Below are positions 24,662-33,513 of a stretch of DNA of 64,000 nt, in pieces. The stretch is from Megasphaera paucivorans. GTDB lineage: Bacteria > Bacillota > Negativicutes > Veillonellales > Megasphaeraceae. Both the position numbers and the translations under genes were made by a program. The notes below the pieces were generated by a model that had not been told where the DNA came from, made no database searches, and saw only the letters and a list, made by a program, of their open reading frames with translations. The stretch is from positions 62,001-126,000 of the forward strand of contig NZ_FNHQ01000003.1 in the NCBI RefSeq assembly GCF_900103535.1. Direction: 5' to 3'. How positions within the stretch are numbered: position 1 is the first letter of the stretch; every line of letters starts with the position of its first letter.

Positions 24662-27600
24662 TTAATATACTGTATTTACCCGAACTCGTTCAATCGTCGG
24701 ATTTCCGTTTTTATCTTTCGATATGGTATCCACGCGAATCCGTTCCAATTCCGGTTTAAATTCACTAACGAGTTTGCTGTCTACGGGAATCCCTTTCTGC
24801 AGTACCCGATAAATAATCTGGGCAAATTCATATCTCGTCATTGTACGATCCCCGCCAAAGGTACCGTCCGGATATCCTTCGATAAGTCCCTGAGCTGCCA
24901 TCGCTTTAATGGTTTCATAGGCCCAATGATTTTCCGGAACATCAGGGAACATCACCGTTGAATTAGGTTTTACTGCCTGCATGCCTACCAACGTATTCAC
25001 AACAGCCGTCAATTTTTGTATTTGTTCTGCCTGCTGTGCTACGACAGCACGCATATCCTTTAATTCTTTCGCCATGGCAACACGGGAAGTGGAAATATGA
25101 TTTCCCTGTCCTAATTTGAAGCTGACACCCGCATTGATCATGTTTTCTCCATTGCCGATACTGCCGCCGATACTGAACATAGTATCTTCATTCGGTCGAT
25201 AATATGCACCTATAGCAGCTGCGCTCGCACCGCTGTAATTACCATATCCAGCGGCAAAATCCCACTTATCATCCGGATCAAAATCGAGAGGATGCAGTGC
25301 GGCAAGAGCTGCTGCACCGGCGCCCACTTTGTCAACACGAGTATCCAAATTACTGATGGAATTCCCGAGAATACTAATATTTTGACTATTGTTAGTGACC
25401 GCTTGATTCGTTGCATACAGTTGGCTGCCATTGACAGCATCAGTGGAATCAGATGATAATTTTCCAGCAGCCACATTGGTAATTGTAGTCCCCTGAGAAC
25501 CACCTAACGTAATTTTACTGTTGTCTACGCTGCCGTCACTGTTGAGATTATATTGCACTGTTCGAGAATCCAGAACTTTTAACTGATCTTCTGTCGCCCC
25601 CTGTCCGCTGGTGTAGTTACCCGGATCCCAAGTTTTATTTGTCAGTCCATTGATCGTACCGGTAGAACCACTACCATTAATCGTCACATTACCGATCTTT
25701 CCGGTTCCGTTTGCTCCATCCAAAGACACCGTCGTACCGGCCTGAATCGTACCATTGCTACCATTCATAGTTACTGCATTATCTCCGGTTCCAGCAGTAA
25801 CCGTTCCTTTAGTACCATCCATGGTAACCGCATTAGCACCACTTCCCAATGTCACCGTATCATTCAACGCCACATTATAATTCGTATGTCCGTCTGTTCC
25901 ATCTACCGTAGGTGTAACCGTAATGTTCTTTCCTGCAGATACAGTTGATTTTGCTGCTGCGGCTGCTTTATCCACCGTATCATTTAGTTGGTCTACATTA
26001 ACTGCGTCCGTTCCATCCACCCCGGCTGCTACATTCGTTATCTTGTTGCCGCCGTTATCCAAACCGCTGCTGGTCAAAGATACATTTTTACCGTTGGAAC
26101 CGGCAATGCTCACTCCATTTCCGGTGACTGACGTCGTATTGCCGGCAGCATCTTTGGTAGTCATACCTGTTGCAGTAACAGACGTGCTGTTTCCCTTGCC
26201 GTCTGCCGTAGTCAGACCATTGGTATCCATCTTGGTATTCCCAGCCGTCACGCTTTCCACATTGATATCCTTATTCAGATTTACCTGATAGTCCGTATGA
26301 CCGTCCATTGGATCTACACTCAATGACACGGTTGTATTCACACCATTGGATACCGTTGTTTTTGATCCGGCTGCCGCTTTATTCAATTGGCTGACATTCA
26401 CGGCATCGTTATCTGCTGTCCCATTTGCTACATTGGTAATCTTGTTGCCGCCGTTATTCAGGCCCGTATTGGACAAAGACACTGCCGTATCCCCCGTGCC
26501 GATGATTACACCGTTCGTATTCATCACCGTGTTGCCTGTAGTAAGGCTGTTGAACACCGCGTCGTCGGCCATCTGGATTTCCAAATCACCGTTTTGGTTC
26601 CTTACCGTCTTGATATTTTTCGACGAAGTCGTGCCGCTTCCTGTATACCCTCCTACAATATTCAGTCGGTCTCCCAGATTCTTATGGATGACCGTACCGT
26701 CATTGCCGGCAAAGTCTAATCCTGCACTTGTTACAGTAGAGGCTGCCAGTTTCAGCTGATCTTCCGTTGCCGCTTGACCACTTACATAGTTGTTAGGATC
26801 CCAGGTTTTGTTGGTCAACCCATTCACGGTTCCTGCGGAATCATTCCCATTAATGGTCACATTGCCTATCTTTGCGGTTCCATTGACCCCATCCAGCACC
26901 ACATTTGTACCTGCCTGAATCGTACCTTTCGTACCATCCAGGGTAACCGCATCGGCACCGCTTCCCAGCGTCACCGTATCATTGAGATTCACTTGATAGT
27001 CTGTATGACCGTCTGCCGCGGTGAAAGAGGTCACGTGCGTATTGGTACCATCAGACACAGTAGTCGCAGCTTTGGCGGCCGCCGTATTCAGCTGGCTCAC
27101 ATTGACCGCATCGTTATCTGCTGTCCCGTTTGCTACATTGGTAATTTTCTGTCCGCCGTTATTCAGACCTGTATTGGTGAGGGATACCGCAGATGATCCG
27201 CTACCTATGGTAATACCGCTGTTATTCATCACCGTGCTGCCTGTAATAAGGCTGTTGAACACCGCGTTATCGGCCATTTGGATTTCCAAATTTCCATCAT
27301 TGTTCTTGACTGTCTTAACATTAGTTGAAGAAGTAGTTCCCGTACCGTTGTAACCGCCTACAATATTTAACTGATCTCCCAAATTCTTATGGATTACCGT
27401 ACCGTCATTACCGGCAAAATTCAATCCTGCCCTTGTTACAGTAGAGGCTGCCAGTTTCAGCTGATCTTCCGTTGCCGCTTGACCACTTACATAGTTGTTA
27501 GGATCCCAGGTTTTGTTGGTCAACCCATTCACGGTTCCTGCGGAACCATTCCCATTAATGGTCACATTGCCTATCTTTCCGGTTCCATTGACACCATCCA

Positions 27601-30600
27601 GCACCACGTTTGTACCTGCCTGAATCGTACCTTTCGTACCATCCAGGGTAACCGCATCGGCGCCGCTTCCCAGCGTCACCGTATCATTGAGATTCACTTG
27701 ATAGTCTGTATGACCGTCTGCCGCGGTGAAAGAGGTCACGTGCGTATTGGTACCATCAGAAACTGTTGTTTTTGATCCAGCTATCGCCGTTTGTAGTTGT
27801 CCTACATTTACCGCATCTGTTTGATCTTTTCCGGCCGCTACATTGGTAATCTTATTACCGCCGTTATTGAGACCGCCATTGGTCAAAGAGACCGCTGTAC
27901 TACCAGTACCAATAGTCACACCATTCGTATTTACCACTGTATTACCCGTGGTCACGCTATGTAAAACTGTGTCATCCGCCATTTGAATTTCCAAATTACC
28001 ATTGGCATCCTTCACCGTTTTTAAATTTTTGGAGGACGTTGTTCCGCTGCCGCTATAGCCGCCGACAATATTTAACGTATCTCCTAAGTTCTTATGAATA
28101 GAATTACCATCATTTCCTGCAAAATTCAGCCCATTATTGGTAAGCGTATTGGAGGCCGACTTTAACTGATCTTCCGTTGCCGCCTGACCAGATACGATGG
28201 CATTGGGATCCCATGCTTTATTAGTCAATCCATTTACGGTGCCCGTTGAACCACTGCCGGTAATAGTAACGTTGCCAATAACTCCGGTACCGGTACTGCC
28301 ATTTAATGATACTTTTGTCCCTGCATTGACTGTTCCTGCTGTACCATCTGCAATAACTGCCCCGGACCCGCTTCCTAACGTAAGTTTCGATGCCAAATTC
28401 ACTTTCACTGCATTCCCGGTATTGCTGATTGTAACATTGCCATCGGTATTGCTGAAATCTACTGTACTGCCAGGTGCCACATTACTCTTAGAGCCGGCTG
28501 CCCCATTTGAGGTTAAATTCCATCCTTCATTCGCAACGGTACTGACCGCATTGAGCTGGCTGCCATTTACCGCATCCGTCGAAGTCGCTGACACAATGCC
28601 GGCCGCCACATTGGTAATCTTATTACCACCCGCATTGATGCCGCTGGCCGTAACACTCGGCCCTCCTGTAATACTAAGTCCGTTCGTATTTACCGTGGTG
28701 TTGCCAGTGGTTAAACTGGTGGAAATTAAATTTGGATTAGTAGCAATCGTCAAATTAGTACCATTCTGGGTAATAGCAATATTATTTCCTGCCGTGGTCG
28801 TAACTGTTGCACCAGGAGCTACATTTGCCGTACTGCTGCCGCTTACCGTACCCGTACCCGTCGCTGCCGCAGTGGTATTCCATCCTTTATTGGCAACGGT
28901 ACTAACCGCGTTAAGCTGGCTGCCATTTACCGCATCCGTCGAAGTCGCTGACACGGTACCAGCCGCCACATTGGTAATCTTTTCATTACCCGCATTAATG
29001 CCGCCGGCCGTAATGCTCGGACCATTCGTAATGACCAGGCCGTTGGTATTCATCACCGTATTTCCCGTTGTAACACTACTCAGCCCGGTCAAGTCTTTCG
29101 CCAGCTGAACCGCCAGTGTGTTGGTAGATGTATTAGCCGTCACTCCTATATTATTGGAAGAAAGGTTCGTTGCAGAAGCTCCTCCGATAATTTGTATCGC
29201 TTGGTCAGAACCGCGCTGTATCACATTCTTATCAGAACTGCTGGCCGCAGAGGTATTGCTTACAGTAGAATTGTCACCAGCAAAACGAAGCGGCTGCGTC
29301 AAGGCATACAATTGACTGCCATTTACCGCATCCGTACTGGAAAGCGATATTAAACCAGCAGAAACATTTTGAATCCGCCGAGTCGAACCAACGGATCCCA
29401 CAGTTACCACACCTGCAGGCGCAGTTCCTGAAAAAGTATAATTTCCATTGCCAATAGTAACCCCGTTATAAGTCGATATGCCTTCTGTGGTATTGCTTGC
29501 ATCAGAGGCTGCTACATAAGCTGAACCGGTACCAAGATATACAGAATTTCCCATCCCTGCCGTAACACTGTTGCCTAAAATAAATACATCCGACAAATCA
29601 GATACAACGTTGTTATTCCCAATGATGCGGTCGTTGCTTCCCGTCAAGGTATTACTATTGCCCAAAATGCCTGATCCTGTGGCATAATCATATGAAGTTG
29701 CATAGGTAGTATCCACCTTGCCAACTATATTTGAATTTCCAATAACATCTGAATTCAATGCGGTTACTGTATTGCTGTTTCCCACTATACTGGAATTTAC
29801 AGTACTGATGGTAGCATAGTTAAGCCCTGTATTATCTGTCGGCACTATTTGGCCTATGCTGTTGCTATTTCCGGTAATACTGGAATTATTAGAATACACC
29901 GTGCTCGCATTTCCCACAACACTGGAATTAGCCGCTGAAATAGTATCTCCATTGCCAATCGCATACGTATCGGCCCCACTCAAAGTAGTTCCATTCGTTT
30001 TTCCAAGCATTGTGCTGCCTATGGCGCCGGAGTTTGAAGCAGATACGGTTACATATGAACCCAACGCCGTTGAAGAAGTTCCCGATGCCATGGTTCCTGT
30101 ACCCATTGCAATGGCAGATGTTCCCGTAGCACTGGCAGTATATCCTTGCGCAATTGCCTTTAAGCCTGATGCGTGCGCAGTTTGCCCTAGTGCAACGGCA
30201 GAATCCGCTGTTGCTTCCGCATAATCACCGATAGCAATAGCATTGTTTGACGTCGTCGTAGGACTATTCTGAAGACCTGTTTGTGCATATGTACCAATAG
30301 CAATAGAATTACTGCCCGTACTGCTCGCCGAAGTACCAATAGCCACTCCCGAAGTATCATAGGCTACAGTTTGTCTGTCCGTAGCCGATACGGCATTGCC
30401 TAAAACAATGGTATTATCTCCTTGTGCTTTTGTATTATAGCCCATGGATATACTTTCTGCCCCCACTGCGGTGACTGCCCCTCCAATTGCAATCGCATCT
30501 TTTCCTGTCGCACCAAGATTTCCTGAATTCCCTCCTACTGTTGAATTAACACTGAAGTACTTGGTACTGCTAGCTGCAATGGCACTTTTCATTTGTCCTA

Positions 30601-33037
30601 AATTTACAGCCTGGTCTGAGGTAACCGCATTTGCCACATTGCTGATGGTGGTGCCATTGGTTCCTGCCAGTTTAATATCAGCATTTGTATTATCCGAATA
30701 GGTAATTGTACCACTGGGGAGAAGATTTATAGTCCCTGAGCTAAGCGCATTTAATGCCGCCGCTACTGTTGAATATGTATAGGTTTGATTCTTGTTATCC
30801 GTCAGAGTGATCCCGCTATAGGTACCATTTGTATTTACTGTTACATTGCCGCCGATAAGATTGGCTACTCTGGTTTGTGCAGCCTGCAGCTGCTGTACAT
30901 TCACTGCATCATACGCAGAGGAACCGGCAGCTACATTAGTAATACGCCGCTGAAAAATCTGCCCATTTGCACCGGAAGATCCCACAGATACAACCCCGAC
31001 ACCGGAAGTGGTTCCCGTTAGATAGCCGTTTCCTGAAGAATCACTTGCAATGGCATAGGAATCATTTCCCAATGCTATGCTGCTATTATCGGCTGCTGTC
31101 GCATTAACTCCTATAGCAACACCGGAAGAAGTAAAGGAAGTAGATTGATAGCCAATTGCAATGGAATTATCTCCCGCTGCATTTGCTAAGTACCCTACAG
31201 CGGTAGCCCCTGAAGCAGCCGTAGTAGAAGCCCCGATCGCCGTGCTATGACTCCCCGTCGCATTTGTTAAATTAGCCTGCCATCCGATAGCAACATTGTT
31301 ATCACCGGCAGTATTACCGCCAGCACTGCTGCCAATCGCAATATTATAAGAACCACTCACGTTATTACCGGCACTTAAACCGATAGCGATATCTTCATTA
31401 CCACTTACATATTGCCCTGCATCTGTACCTAATGCGATACGATTCGCTTGATTTTTCGCAGTGCTTGTACCTGTGGATCCTAGTCCCGCAGAAGAACCAA
31501 AGGAAATATCGTTACTGCCGCTGGTACTGGCCGATGCCCCCAAAGCGATACTTGTATCTCCGTTAGCTGCAGCAGCTGTACCTAACGCAATTCCGTTGCC
31601 AGCACTAGCCGCGGTTCCTAAAACAATGGCATTGGTTCCAGCAGAAGCGGAAAGTCCCAAAGCAATGCCATTCGTACCGGCACTAGTTTTATCGCCTATG
31701 GCAGTACCATCCGTACCGGCTTTAGCCGATGTACCCAAGGCTACGCCGCTAGCACCACTAACTTGGGTTCCATCACCAATGGCAATCCCTGTTACACCAT
31801 CTGTAACAGCGGACAGACCAATCGCTATCGAATTAGCCGAGGTTGCATTAGCTGATCCGCCAAAGGCAATACTTCCCTCTCCACCGGCACTCGCGGTTGT
31901 TCCTAAAGCAATTGCATTATCGGCAGTGACACTGGCAGCATCACCTATGGCAATTCCCTGATTTCCTCCCGTGAGAGTGGTTACGCCATTCACTGTTTTC
32001 GAGCCAACCGTTGCCGCTGAGCCTAGCGCCAAAGAATTATCCGCTGCCGCTGCCGCACTATATCCCACAGCGACAGCCCCCGTACCACTGGACACTGCCG
32101 AAATTCCTGCTGCAATAGAGGCTGTCCCGCTGGATACAGCAGAACTGCCTACAGCAATCGCATCCGTCCCGGATGCACTTGCATCAATTCCCGTAGAATT
32201 TTCCCGAAAATACTTTACTCCTATACCCGTCGTTTGGAGCGCAGTTTGAAGTGCTGTTATATGAGTTGCATTGGTTGCTATATTCGTTTCATCTGTTGTA
32301 GCTCGTGTTTTTAAACCACTAATATCATTGGCATTCGCCGTTATCTTTGTTTCATCAGCCGTGGCCCGTGTTTTCAGACCGCTGATATCACTGGTATTCG
32401 CCGCAATAGTTGTTTCATCGGCCGCTGCTCGTGTTTTCAGACCACTAATATCACTGGTGTTCGCCGCAATAGTTGTTTCATCAGCCGCTGCTCGTGTCTT
32501 CAGACCACTGATATCACTGGTGTTCGCCGCAACGTTTTGGTTTGTTGCAAATAATTGTCCGCCATTTACCGCATCCATTGAAGTCACGGAAGAAATATCT
32601 CCTGCTGACACATTTGTGATTTTTTCTCCACCAGCCTTTATGCCGCTGACTTGTATGCTTGGACCACCGGTAATAGCAAGTCCGCTGGCATCTATCGTTG
32701 TATTGCCCACCGTTAGTGTATCTGCAGTTATGCTGGGGTTCACGCCAATGCTCAAGGTCGTGCCATCACTAGATTCTGTAAGGATTATATTACTGCCTTC
32801 TTGCACTTGGGTTATTCCGCTGATCGGCACAATGGTATCTGCAAATACCGGAGAAATCATGAATCCTGCCATTGCAGAAGCAAGCAGCAGTTTTCGTGCG
32901 TTTAATAATTGTAAAGCACATTTATCTTTCCGTTTGGCCGAGGGAGTTGAAGATTTGCTATGTCCTTTAGATAATTCAGATACCACTTGATATACCTGCA
33001 GTGCTTGATTAAATATAACCTTATATATTTTGTTCAT
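24662..33037 (-). CDS. Giant YadA-like trimeric autotransporter adhesin with C-terminal SLH domain
   Basis: 2791 aa, outer-membrane adhesin. The extended signal peptide MNKIYKVIFNQALQVYQVVS with cleavage near GFMISPVFA is the ESPR type. After a first HIM motif come about four 21-residue coiled-coil repeats (ANTSDISGLKTRA...). Then there are many YadA-head repeats of the SIAIGxxAxA type (roughly 270-1200), followed by a long stalk of HIM/neck (STDAVNGSQL), GIN and Trp-ring (NGLTNKTWDP) units. The four-strand YadA anchor barrel is near 2586-2645. Unlike classical YadA, a periplasmic coiled coil and one SLH domain follow the barrel (about 2696-2747, FPDVPENHWAYETIKAMAAQ). ATG 33037 follows GGAGG; the longer frame adds five codons. 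It begins 14 bp after an out-of-frame XRE gene. Confidence 0.95.
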   Translation of the reverse strand: MNKIYKVIFNQALQVYQVVSELSKGHSKSSTPSAKRKDKCALQLLNARKLLLASAMAGFMISPVFADTIVPISGITQVQEGSNIILTESSDGTTLSIGVNPSITADTLTVGNTTIDASGLAITGGPSIQVSGIKAGGEKITNVSAGDISSVTSMDAVNGGQLFATNQNVAANTSDISGLKTRAAADETTIAANTSDISGLKTRAAADETTIAANTSDISGLKTRATADETKITANANDISGLKTRATTDETNIATNATHITALQTALQTTGIGVKYFRENSTGIDASASGTDAIAVGSSAVSSGTASIAAGISAVSSGTGAVAVGYSAAAAADNSLALGSAATVGSKTVNGVTTLTGGNQGIAIGDAASVTADNAIALGTTASAGGEGSIAFGGSANATSANSIAIGLSAVTDGVTGIAIGDGTQVSGASGVALGTSAKAGTDGTAIGDKTSAGTNGIALGLSASAGTNAIVLGTAASAGNGIALGTAAAANGDTSIALGASASTSGSNDISFGSSAGLGSTGTSTAKNQANRIALGTDAGQYVSGNEDIAIGLSAGNNVSGSYNIAIGSSAGGNTAGDNNVAIGWQANLTNATGSHSTAIGASTTAASGATAVGYLANAAGDNSIAIGYQSTSFTSSGVAIGVNATAADNSSIALGNDSYAIASDSSGNGYLTGTTSGVGVVSVGSSGANGQIFQRRITNVAAGSSAYDAVNVQQLQAAQTRVANLIGGNVTVNTNGTYSGITLTDNKNQTYTYSTVAAALNALSSGTINLLPSGTITYSDNTNADIKLAGTNGTTISNVANAVTSDQAVNLGQMKSAIAASSTKYFSVNSTVGGNSGNLGATGKDAIAIGGAVTAVGAESISMGYNTKAQGDNTIVLGNAVSATDRQTVAYDTSGVAIGTSASSTGSNSIAIGTYAQTGLQNSPTTTSNNAIAIGDYAEATADSAVALGQTAHASGLKAIAQGYTASATGTSAIAMGTGTMASGTSSTALGSYVTVSASNSGAIGSTMLGKTNGTTLSGADTYAIGNGDTISAANSSVVGNASTVYSNNSSITGNSNSIGQIVPTDNTGLNYATISTVNSSIVGNSNTVTALNSDVIGNSNIVGKVDTTYATSYDYATGSGILGNSNTLTGSNDRIIGNNNVVSDLSDVFILGNSVTAGMGNSVYLGTGSAYVAASDASNTTEGISTYNGVTIGNGNYTFSGTAPAGVVTVGSVGSTRRIQNVSAGLISLSSTDAVNGSQLYALTQPLRFAGDNSTVSNTSAASSSDKNVIQRGSDQAIQIIGGASATNLSSNNIGVTANTSTNTLAVQLAKDLTGLSSVTTGNTVMNTNGLVITNGPSITAGGINAGNEKITNVAAGTVSATSTDAVNGSQLNAVSTVANKGWNTTAAATGTGTVSGSSTANVAPGATVTTTAGNNIAITQNGTNLTIATNPNLISTSLTTGNTTVNTNGLSITGGPSVTASGINAGGNKITNVAAGIVSATSTDAVNGSQLNAVSTVANEGWNLTSNGAAGSKSNVAPGSTVDFSNTDGNVTISNTGNAVKVNLASKLTLGSGSGAVIADGTAGTVNAGTKVSLNGSTGTGVIGNVTITGSGSTGTVNGLTNKAWDPNAIVSGQAATEDQLKSASNTLTNNGLNFAGNDGNSIHKNLGDTLNIVGGYSGSGTTSSKNLKTVKDANGNLEIQMADDTVLHSVTTGNTVVNTNGVTIGTGSTAVSLTNGGLNNGGNKITNVAAGKDQTDAVNVGQLQTAIAGSKTTVSDGTNTHVTSFTAADGHTDYQVNLNDTVTLGSGADAVTLDGTKGTIQAGTNVVLDGVNGTGKIGNVTINGNGSAGTVNGLTNKTWDPNNYVSGQAATEDQLKLAASTVTRAGLNFAGNDGTVIHKNLGDQLNIVGGYNGTGTTSSTNVKTVKNNDGNLEIQMADNAVFNSLITGSTVMNNSGITIGSGSSAVSLTNTGLNNGGQKITNVANGTADNDAVNVSQLNTAAAKAATTVSDGTNTHVTSFTAADGHTDYQVNLNDTVTLGSGADAVTLDGTKGTIQAGTNVVLDGVNGTAKIGNVTINGNDSAGTVNGLTNKTWDPNNYVSGQAATEDQLKLAASTVTSAGLDFAGNDGTVIHKNLGDRLNIVGGYTGSGTTSSKNIKTVRNQNGDLEIQMADDAVFNSLTTGNTVMNTNGVIIGTGDTAVSLSNTGLNNGGNKITNVANGTADNDAVNVSQLNKAAAGSKTTVSNGVNTTVSLSVDPMDGHTDYQVNLNKDINVESVTAGNTKMDTNGLTTADGKGNSTSVTATGMTTKDAAGNTTSVTGNGVSIAGSNGKNVSLTSSGLDNGGNKITNVAAGVDGTDAVNVDQLNDTVDKAAAAAKSTVSAGKNITVTPTVDGTDGHTNYNVALNDTVTLGSGANAVTMDGTKGTVTAGTGDNAVTMNGSNGTIQAGTTVSLDGANGTGKIGNVTINGSGSTGTINGLTNKTWDPGNYTSGQGATEDQLKVLDSRTVQYNLNSDGSVDNSKITLGGSQGTTITNVAAGKLSSDSTDAVNGSQLYATNQAVTNNSQNISILGNSISNLDTRVDKVGAGAAALAALHPLDFDPDDKWDFAAGYGNYSGASAAAIGAYYRPNEDTMFSIGGSIGNGENMINAGVSFKLGQGNHISTSRVAMAKELKDMRAVVAQQAEQIQKLTAVVNTLVGMQAVKPNSTVMFPDVPENHWAYETIKAMAAQGLIEGYPDGTFGGDRTMTRYEFAQIIYRVLQKGIPVDSKLVSEFKPELERIRVDTISKDKNGNPTIERVRVNTVY
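26346..27775 (-). repeat. Two tandem about 705-bp near-identical repeats in the adhesin stalk
   Basis: Blocks such as TCACGTGCGTATTGGTACCA and GTTAGGATCCCAGGTTTTGT recur exactly 705 bp apart (e.g. near 26761 and 27466; near 27006 and 27711). Each unit encodes 235 aa (HIM + GIN + Trp-ring stalk). Such long identity is expected to allow copy-number change by recombination. Confidence 0.88.
32280..32530 (-). repeat. 63-bp tandem repeats encoding 21-residue coiled-coil units
   Basis: About four copies; the most alike pair starts at 32401 and 32464. Each unit codes for 21 residues, i.e. exactly three heptads, so gain or loss keeps the coiled-coil register. Confidence 0.85.
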
Positions 33038-33051
33038 AATTTTTTCCTCCA

Positions 33052-33293
33052 TTATTTTCTATTTTTCATAAAAGAAAAAAAGGCTGTAAAATGAATCCCC
33101 AAGGCATTGGCAATATCTATGAGCATAGACAGCGAAATATTCCGATTATAGTTTCCACATTCGATTTTTCCGATGGAACTTCTGCTGATATGTGCTTTAT
33201 CCGCCAATTCTTGTTGGGTTAAATTTTTTTTTTTCTATAACTTGCAACTTGATATCCTATCTGTTTAAAATAAATTTCCTTGTCATCATACAA
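33052..33293 (-). pseudogene. XRE-family HTH regulator out of frame at an A11 tract (possible phase-variable gene)
   Basis: Start TTG 33293, 7 nt after AAGGAGA. The first part reads YDDKEIYFKQIGYQVASYRK and enters a run of 11 A (33224-33234 as T on the plus strand). In the present state it stops after 24 residues. In the next frame it continues NLTQQELADKAHISRSSIGK-IECGNY and ends MKNRK at 33052. With 12 A (or 9) the product would be a complete 80-aa (or 79-aa) HTH protein with the canonical LTQQELA...IGKIE recognition helices. It ends 14 bp before the adhesin ATG, and its stop codon is next to the adhesin RBS. It could be a decaying gene, a sequencing error in the homopolymer, or a switch. 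Confidence 0.8.
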
Positions 33294-33371
33294 AATTATC
33301 TCTCCTTTTTTATTATTTAGTTAAGAATATTAAGTTATATTGATTATTATTAACTTAATATATATATTTGT

Positions 33372-33400: not shown

Positions 33401-33447
33401 GTATAATTATTCATAAAATAAATTAATAGTTTATATATTCGTCTTAT

Positions 33448-33513
33448 AATGTTCATAAATAAGAACATTATCATCATAAATAAGAACATTTGAATTGTAT
33501 TTATGATGATAAT
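33448..33513. promoter_or_regulatory. Operator-like repeat cluster upstream of the adhesin promoter
   Basis: The 16-mer CATAAATAAGAACATT occurs twice, at 33454-33469 and 33475-33490, i.e. 21 bp (two helical turns) apart. AATGTTC/GAACATT forms one inverted repeat (33448-33454 / 33463-33469). ATTATCATCATAAATA (33467-33482) pairs with 33498-33513 in a perfect 16-bp inverted repeat. They lie upstream of the putative -35, in an activator position. Confidence 0.6.

Follow-up and report, generated by a model that had tools for sequence, protein, structure and literature searches.

In Citrobacter rodentium, the tssM1 gene carries a stop preceded by a run of eleven A's, and the interrupted frame is restored by transcriptional slippage, so that cDNA with 10-15 A's is obtained and the complete protein is made (PMC4256274). 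Genes broken at runs of nine A's have been described as 'pseudo pseudogenes' (PMC1088944). A related phenomenon is found at the DNA level in Listeria monocytogenes, where poly-A variation at the 5' end of inlA occurs about 1000-fold above the point mutation rate (PMC2831843). The locus described here, in a 64-kb stretch of DNA (the window), combines such a run with a small regulator gene and a giant surface adhesin gene.

The regulator gene (33052..33293, minus strand) begins with a TTG codon at 33293-33291, behind the sequence AGGAGAG in its ribosome-binding region (33294..33310, minus strand). Its upstream frame reads (TTG) LYDDKEIYFKQIGYQVASYRKKKI and is then closed by a stop at codon 25. 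Directly before this in-frame TAA is an A11 tract (33224..33234, minus strand; T11 on the plus strand), which is the sole lesion of the gene. The remainder of the gene past the tract lies in the -1 frame relative to the TTG-started frame, reads KKKNLTQQELADKAHISRSSIGKIECGNYNRNISLSMLIDIANALGIHFTAFFSFMKNRK and runs for 60 codons without a stop to a TAA at 33054-33052. The first-pass annotation had described a short HTH gene that is broken exactly at the A11 run and ends 14 bp ahead of an 8.4-kb adhesin gene. Its coordinates and description are right, and the spacing was likewise confirmed, the last base of the regulator stop being 33052 and the adhesin start 33037.

The predicted product is a genuine small DNA-binding regulator of the XRE family (Cro/CI-type). 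The slipped-frame protein, canonically of 80 residues, matches HTH_3 with an E-value of 4.6e-15, a match that requires this frame, and the invariant residues of the family are kept in the frame after it. It shares 51-57% identity with five paralogues and orthologues from the two genomes of its genus, and three intact relatives are encoded elsewhere in its own genome. Across 380 genomes of the class, a search at E below 1e-22 detected the family in 70, and no other copy among the matches listed from these 70 genomes contains a stop. Orthologous paralogues at two loci (L090 and L091) have in-frame A9 runs near their 3' ends. Among described small XRE regulators, SinR, C.AhdI/C.BclI and CylR2 share the HTH_3 domain and the size, as judged by sequence profile, but the present regulator is not orthologous to any of them. 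Plasmid and phage searches returned only remote XRE proteins, below 46% identity among the matches listed, a scan of viral contigs with a 16-mer flanking the tract gave chance matches only, and an Rfam search gave no match.

Comparison of the coding DNA of 91 copies of the family defines how the frame would have to be restored. In all 90 intact homologues (83 scored by pattern and seven by eye), exactly four residues separate the conserved arginine from an L-T-Q-like motif. The family spacing, as R-KKKN-LTQ, would be regained if the gene gained one base net, if its mRNA carried an additional A or if the ribosome shifted by -1. Loss of two bases, considered as an equivalent restoring event, would give a three-residue spacing, which occurs in none of the 90 homologues. 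The earlier proposal that either A12 or A9 restores the HTH protein thus stands for the added A, but not for the removal of two. Initiation at a downstream TTG was also considered and rejected, since the resulting protein would lack helix 1 and some of helix 2 and should therefore not have a functional HTH domain. The longest run in the 90 other copies is nine, and only the copy beside the adhesin exceeds this length.

The explanation favoured here, at roughly even confidence, is that the regulator gene yields some protein through transcriptional slippage on the A11 tract and can regain its frame through replication slippage there. Ordinary translation of the A11 allele would end at codon 25, while addition of one A by RNA polymerase in a fraction of transcripts would give the canonical regulator; replication slippage, in turn, should raise the frequency at which the DNA frame reverts. 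A run of at least nine A's stands at the frame break, and a full open reading frame follows from one added A, as expected of a pseudo-pseudogene. A less likely route to the same 80-residue protein would be for the ribosome to slip by -1 on the heptamer A AAA AAA. Despite this slippery heptamer, no significant structure was detected where a stimulatory hairpin was sought downstream of it (z -0.2), which makes programmed ribosomal frameshifting less likely. The likeness to tssM1 is close, as in both genes a stop lies just past an A11 run and a transcript lengthened by one A encodes the full protein; tssM1 has no ribosomal-frameshift signals nearby, and here no stimulatory structure was detected beside the slippery heptamer. 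However, tssM1 encodes a secretion-machine protein and its slippage was established with mass spectrometry on cDNA, whereas here the gene encodes a small regulator and slippage is predicted (PMC4256274). With inlA the locus shares a poly-A run near the 5' end and a frameshift that leads to a short peptide, and inlA changes frame at high frequency; in Listeria the tract lies in the gene of the surface protein itself, whereas here it sits in an upstream regulator (PMC2831843). In view of tssM1 and inlA together, the locus is best read as one of leaky or switchable expression. The first-pass suggestion that RNA polymerase slippage on the A11 run could yield functional protein appears realistic in the light of tssM1 (PMC4256274). 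The break, the otherwise undamaged gene, the single frame that restores the spacing and the operon-like arrangement are evident from the sequence; that slippage takes place at the tract, that the protein functions and that it controls the adhesin or its own gene are inferred. Against the slippage explanation, a recently dead gene would look identical, and an A11 run is expected from base composition and codon choice.

The gene downstream of the regulator encodes a giant trimeric autotransporter adhesin (24662..33037, minus strand), with an ESPR, a YadA head, stalks and a YadA anchor, to which a C-terminal SLH domain is added. A C-terminal SLH domain after the YadA anchor has been described for trimeric autotransporters of Veillonella and other Negativicutes, and the domain order of the Veillonella proteins is the same as that found here (PMC7549365). 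Such SLH-bearing autotransporters, with the general gene content, suggest that the DNA comes from the Negativicutes, probably from the Veillonellales. The adhesin open reading frame spans 24662-33052 (8.4 kb). Its canonical start, MNKIYK, is at 33037 behind GGAGGA, 14 nt past the regulator stop; a second possible start, an in-frame ATG at 33052, shares bases with that stop (TAATG). The spacing is operon-like, and the two genes are probably co-transcribed. A second ESPR-bearing adhesin gene begins at the end of another contig of the same genome (L177, C42), where it is cut by the contig end.

The intergenic region upstream of the regulator contains two tandem 21-bp repeats ending ATAAATAAGAAC (33446..33487, minus strand). 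The repeats are GTTCATAAATAAGAAC-like, one copy having GTTC-N8-GAAC ends, and are spaced by about two turns of the helix. They lie 150-190 bp ahead of the regulator gene and overlap a promoter-like -10 hexamer. Exact copies of the 13-mer CATAAATAAGAAC occur in the genome only within these two repeats. On this evidence the repeats are a candidate operator. The same intergenic region also holds a perfect inverted repeat of 16 bp, ATTATCATCATAAATA / TATTTATGATGATAAT, whose arms are separated by 15 nt (33467-33513).

The first-pass annotation had the regulator as possibly controlling the giant adhesin, and this idea is not borne out by conservation of the pairing. The present locus departs from the Veillonella-type comparison (PMC7549365) in having a regulator in front of the adhesin; none of the other 29 ESPR loci fetched from the family has a copy within its flank of up to 1.5 kb. 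Among the regulator homologues compared, no other precedes an adhesin gene. At L155 and L157, in two genomes of the order, a relative of the regulator points towards the end of a gene for a trimeric autotransporter, the two genes being convergent. The one other genome of the genus that was compared carries an orthologous adhesin (C46), seen as its C-terminal 1411 residues, with a main DNA match 87% identical. The flanking genes there are in matching order, with the NUDIX side on a second contig (C79). One of these contigs ends inside the adhesin gene and the other just past the NUDIX gene, with the regulator and the 5' end of the adhesin falling between them. The conserved association expected of a dedicated adhesin regulator was thus not found, and as far as the genomes compared show, the pairing appears local to the lineage.

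The tract itself, at 33224-33234, is the longest homopolymer of the window, the runner-up being a T9. An order-1 Markov model of the window predicts about 0.5 A/T runs of at least 11 for a window of this size and about 23 for the genome. Only four were observed in the genome against these 23, indicating that long runs are depleted, as is known for slippage-prone sequences (PMC1088944). The tract codons are AGA-AAA-AAA-AAA-AAT (R-K-K-K-N), and AAA and AAT account for 73% of lysine and 81% of asparagine codons. Ordinary AT-rich coding of R-K-K-K-N therefore yields an A11, and the tract need not be a selected repeat. With 0.5 runs expected per window and homologues that are without the tract, it is neither over-represented nor conserved beyond composition, as a contingency locus would require. 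As a run, the A11 is unsurprising; that the gene's only lesion coincides with the window's only long run is noteworthy.

Homopolymers longer than ten are also the commonest place for errors of assembly or sequencing, and the genome is a draft of 76 contigs, so that the regulator gene might simply be intact in the organism. This is unlikely in view of the other long runs. The genome has 22 runs of at least ten A or T, of which nine others, in eight genes whose identities were read by eye, are coding A10-A12 runs and all in frame; one, the only other coding run of at least 11, is an A12 in a gene for a 586-residue phosphoesterase-like protein (L141, C55:226762). The assembly is hence not generally unreliable at such runs, and gross sequencing error is improbable, although one error among the ten runs may still have occurred. 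A dnaX-like gene carries an A10 towards its 3' end (L124, C23:21859); dnaX is known elsewhere for slippage or frameshifting. Another doubtful reading is that of an ordinary recent pseudogene, in which the frameshift is a fixed, functionless loss in this strain. In its favour are the divergence of this paralogue (51-57% identity), the three intact relatives elsewhere in the genome and the fact that frameshifts arise at slippery runs; against this, the 80 codons contain no second lesion, and the ribosome site and conserved residues are retained.

Selection of the tract as a dedicated contingency locus, in which replication slippage changes tract length, toggles the XRE regulator and so phase-varies the adhesin, is plausible but carries little of our confidence. 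The layout noted in the first-pass annotation is real, as the tract falls within the first third of the regulator gene, directly upstream of a surface adhesin, and comparable events are the high-frequency poly-A variation of inlA (PMC2831843) and a homonucleotide switch in the Staphylococcus aureus regulator agrA (reviewed in PMC7911514). Neither conservation nor composition helps this interpretation, however, since the 29 other ESPR loci and the other regulator homologues fail to repeat the arrangement and the tract is compositionally ordinary. The frame might instead act in cis, instead of or besides encoding a DNA-binding protein: translation of the full frame as far as TAATG would open a stem that hides the adhesin Shine-Dalgarno sequence, and so set adhesin translation by coupling. 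The stop-start overlap, the gap of 14 nt before MNK and a marginal 13-bp stem (33038..33084, minus strand), which joins the regulator 3' end to GGAGGAAAAAA, fit such an effect. The stem, however, is nearly all A-U and G-U and reaches only -8.4 kcal/mol, a stability equalled in 8 and 14 of 200 shuffles (4-7%), and it is without comparative support; we consider the cis effect quite improbable.

The preferred explanation, leaky and revertible expression by slippage, can be extended to a poly-A slippage rheostat, an idea that is speculative and improbable as it stands. RNA polymerase slippage on the A11 tract in the first gene of the operon would set a low, noisy dose of the regulator, and indels in the tract would switch the regulator. 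If true, one giant adhesin would vary both heritably and non-heritably in a diderm Firmicute, a group in which the regulatory circuits of trimeric autotransporters are said to be largely undiscovered (PMC7549365). A regulator interrupted at an A-run is also a warning against annotating such genes as dead. Should the tract set the dose of a regulator of the giant adhesin, it would offer a simple, testable handle on cell-to-cell variation in adhesion.
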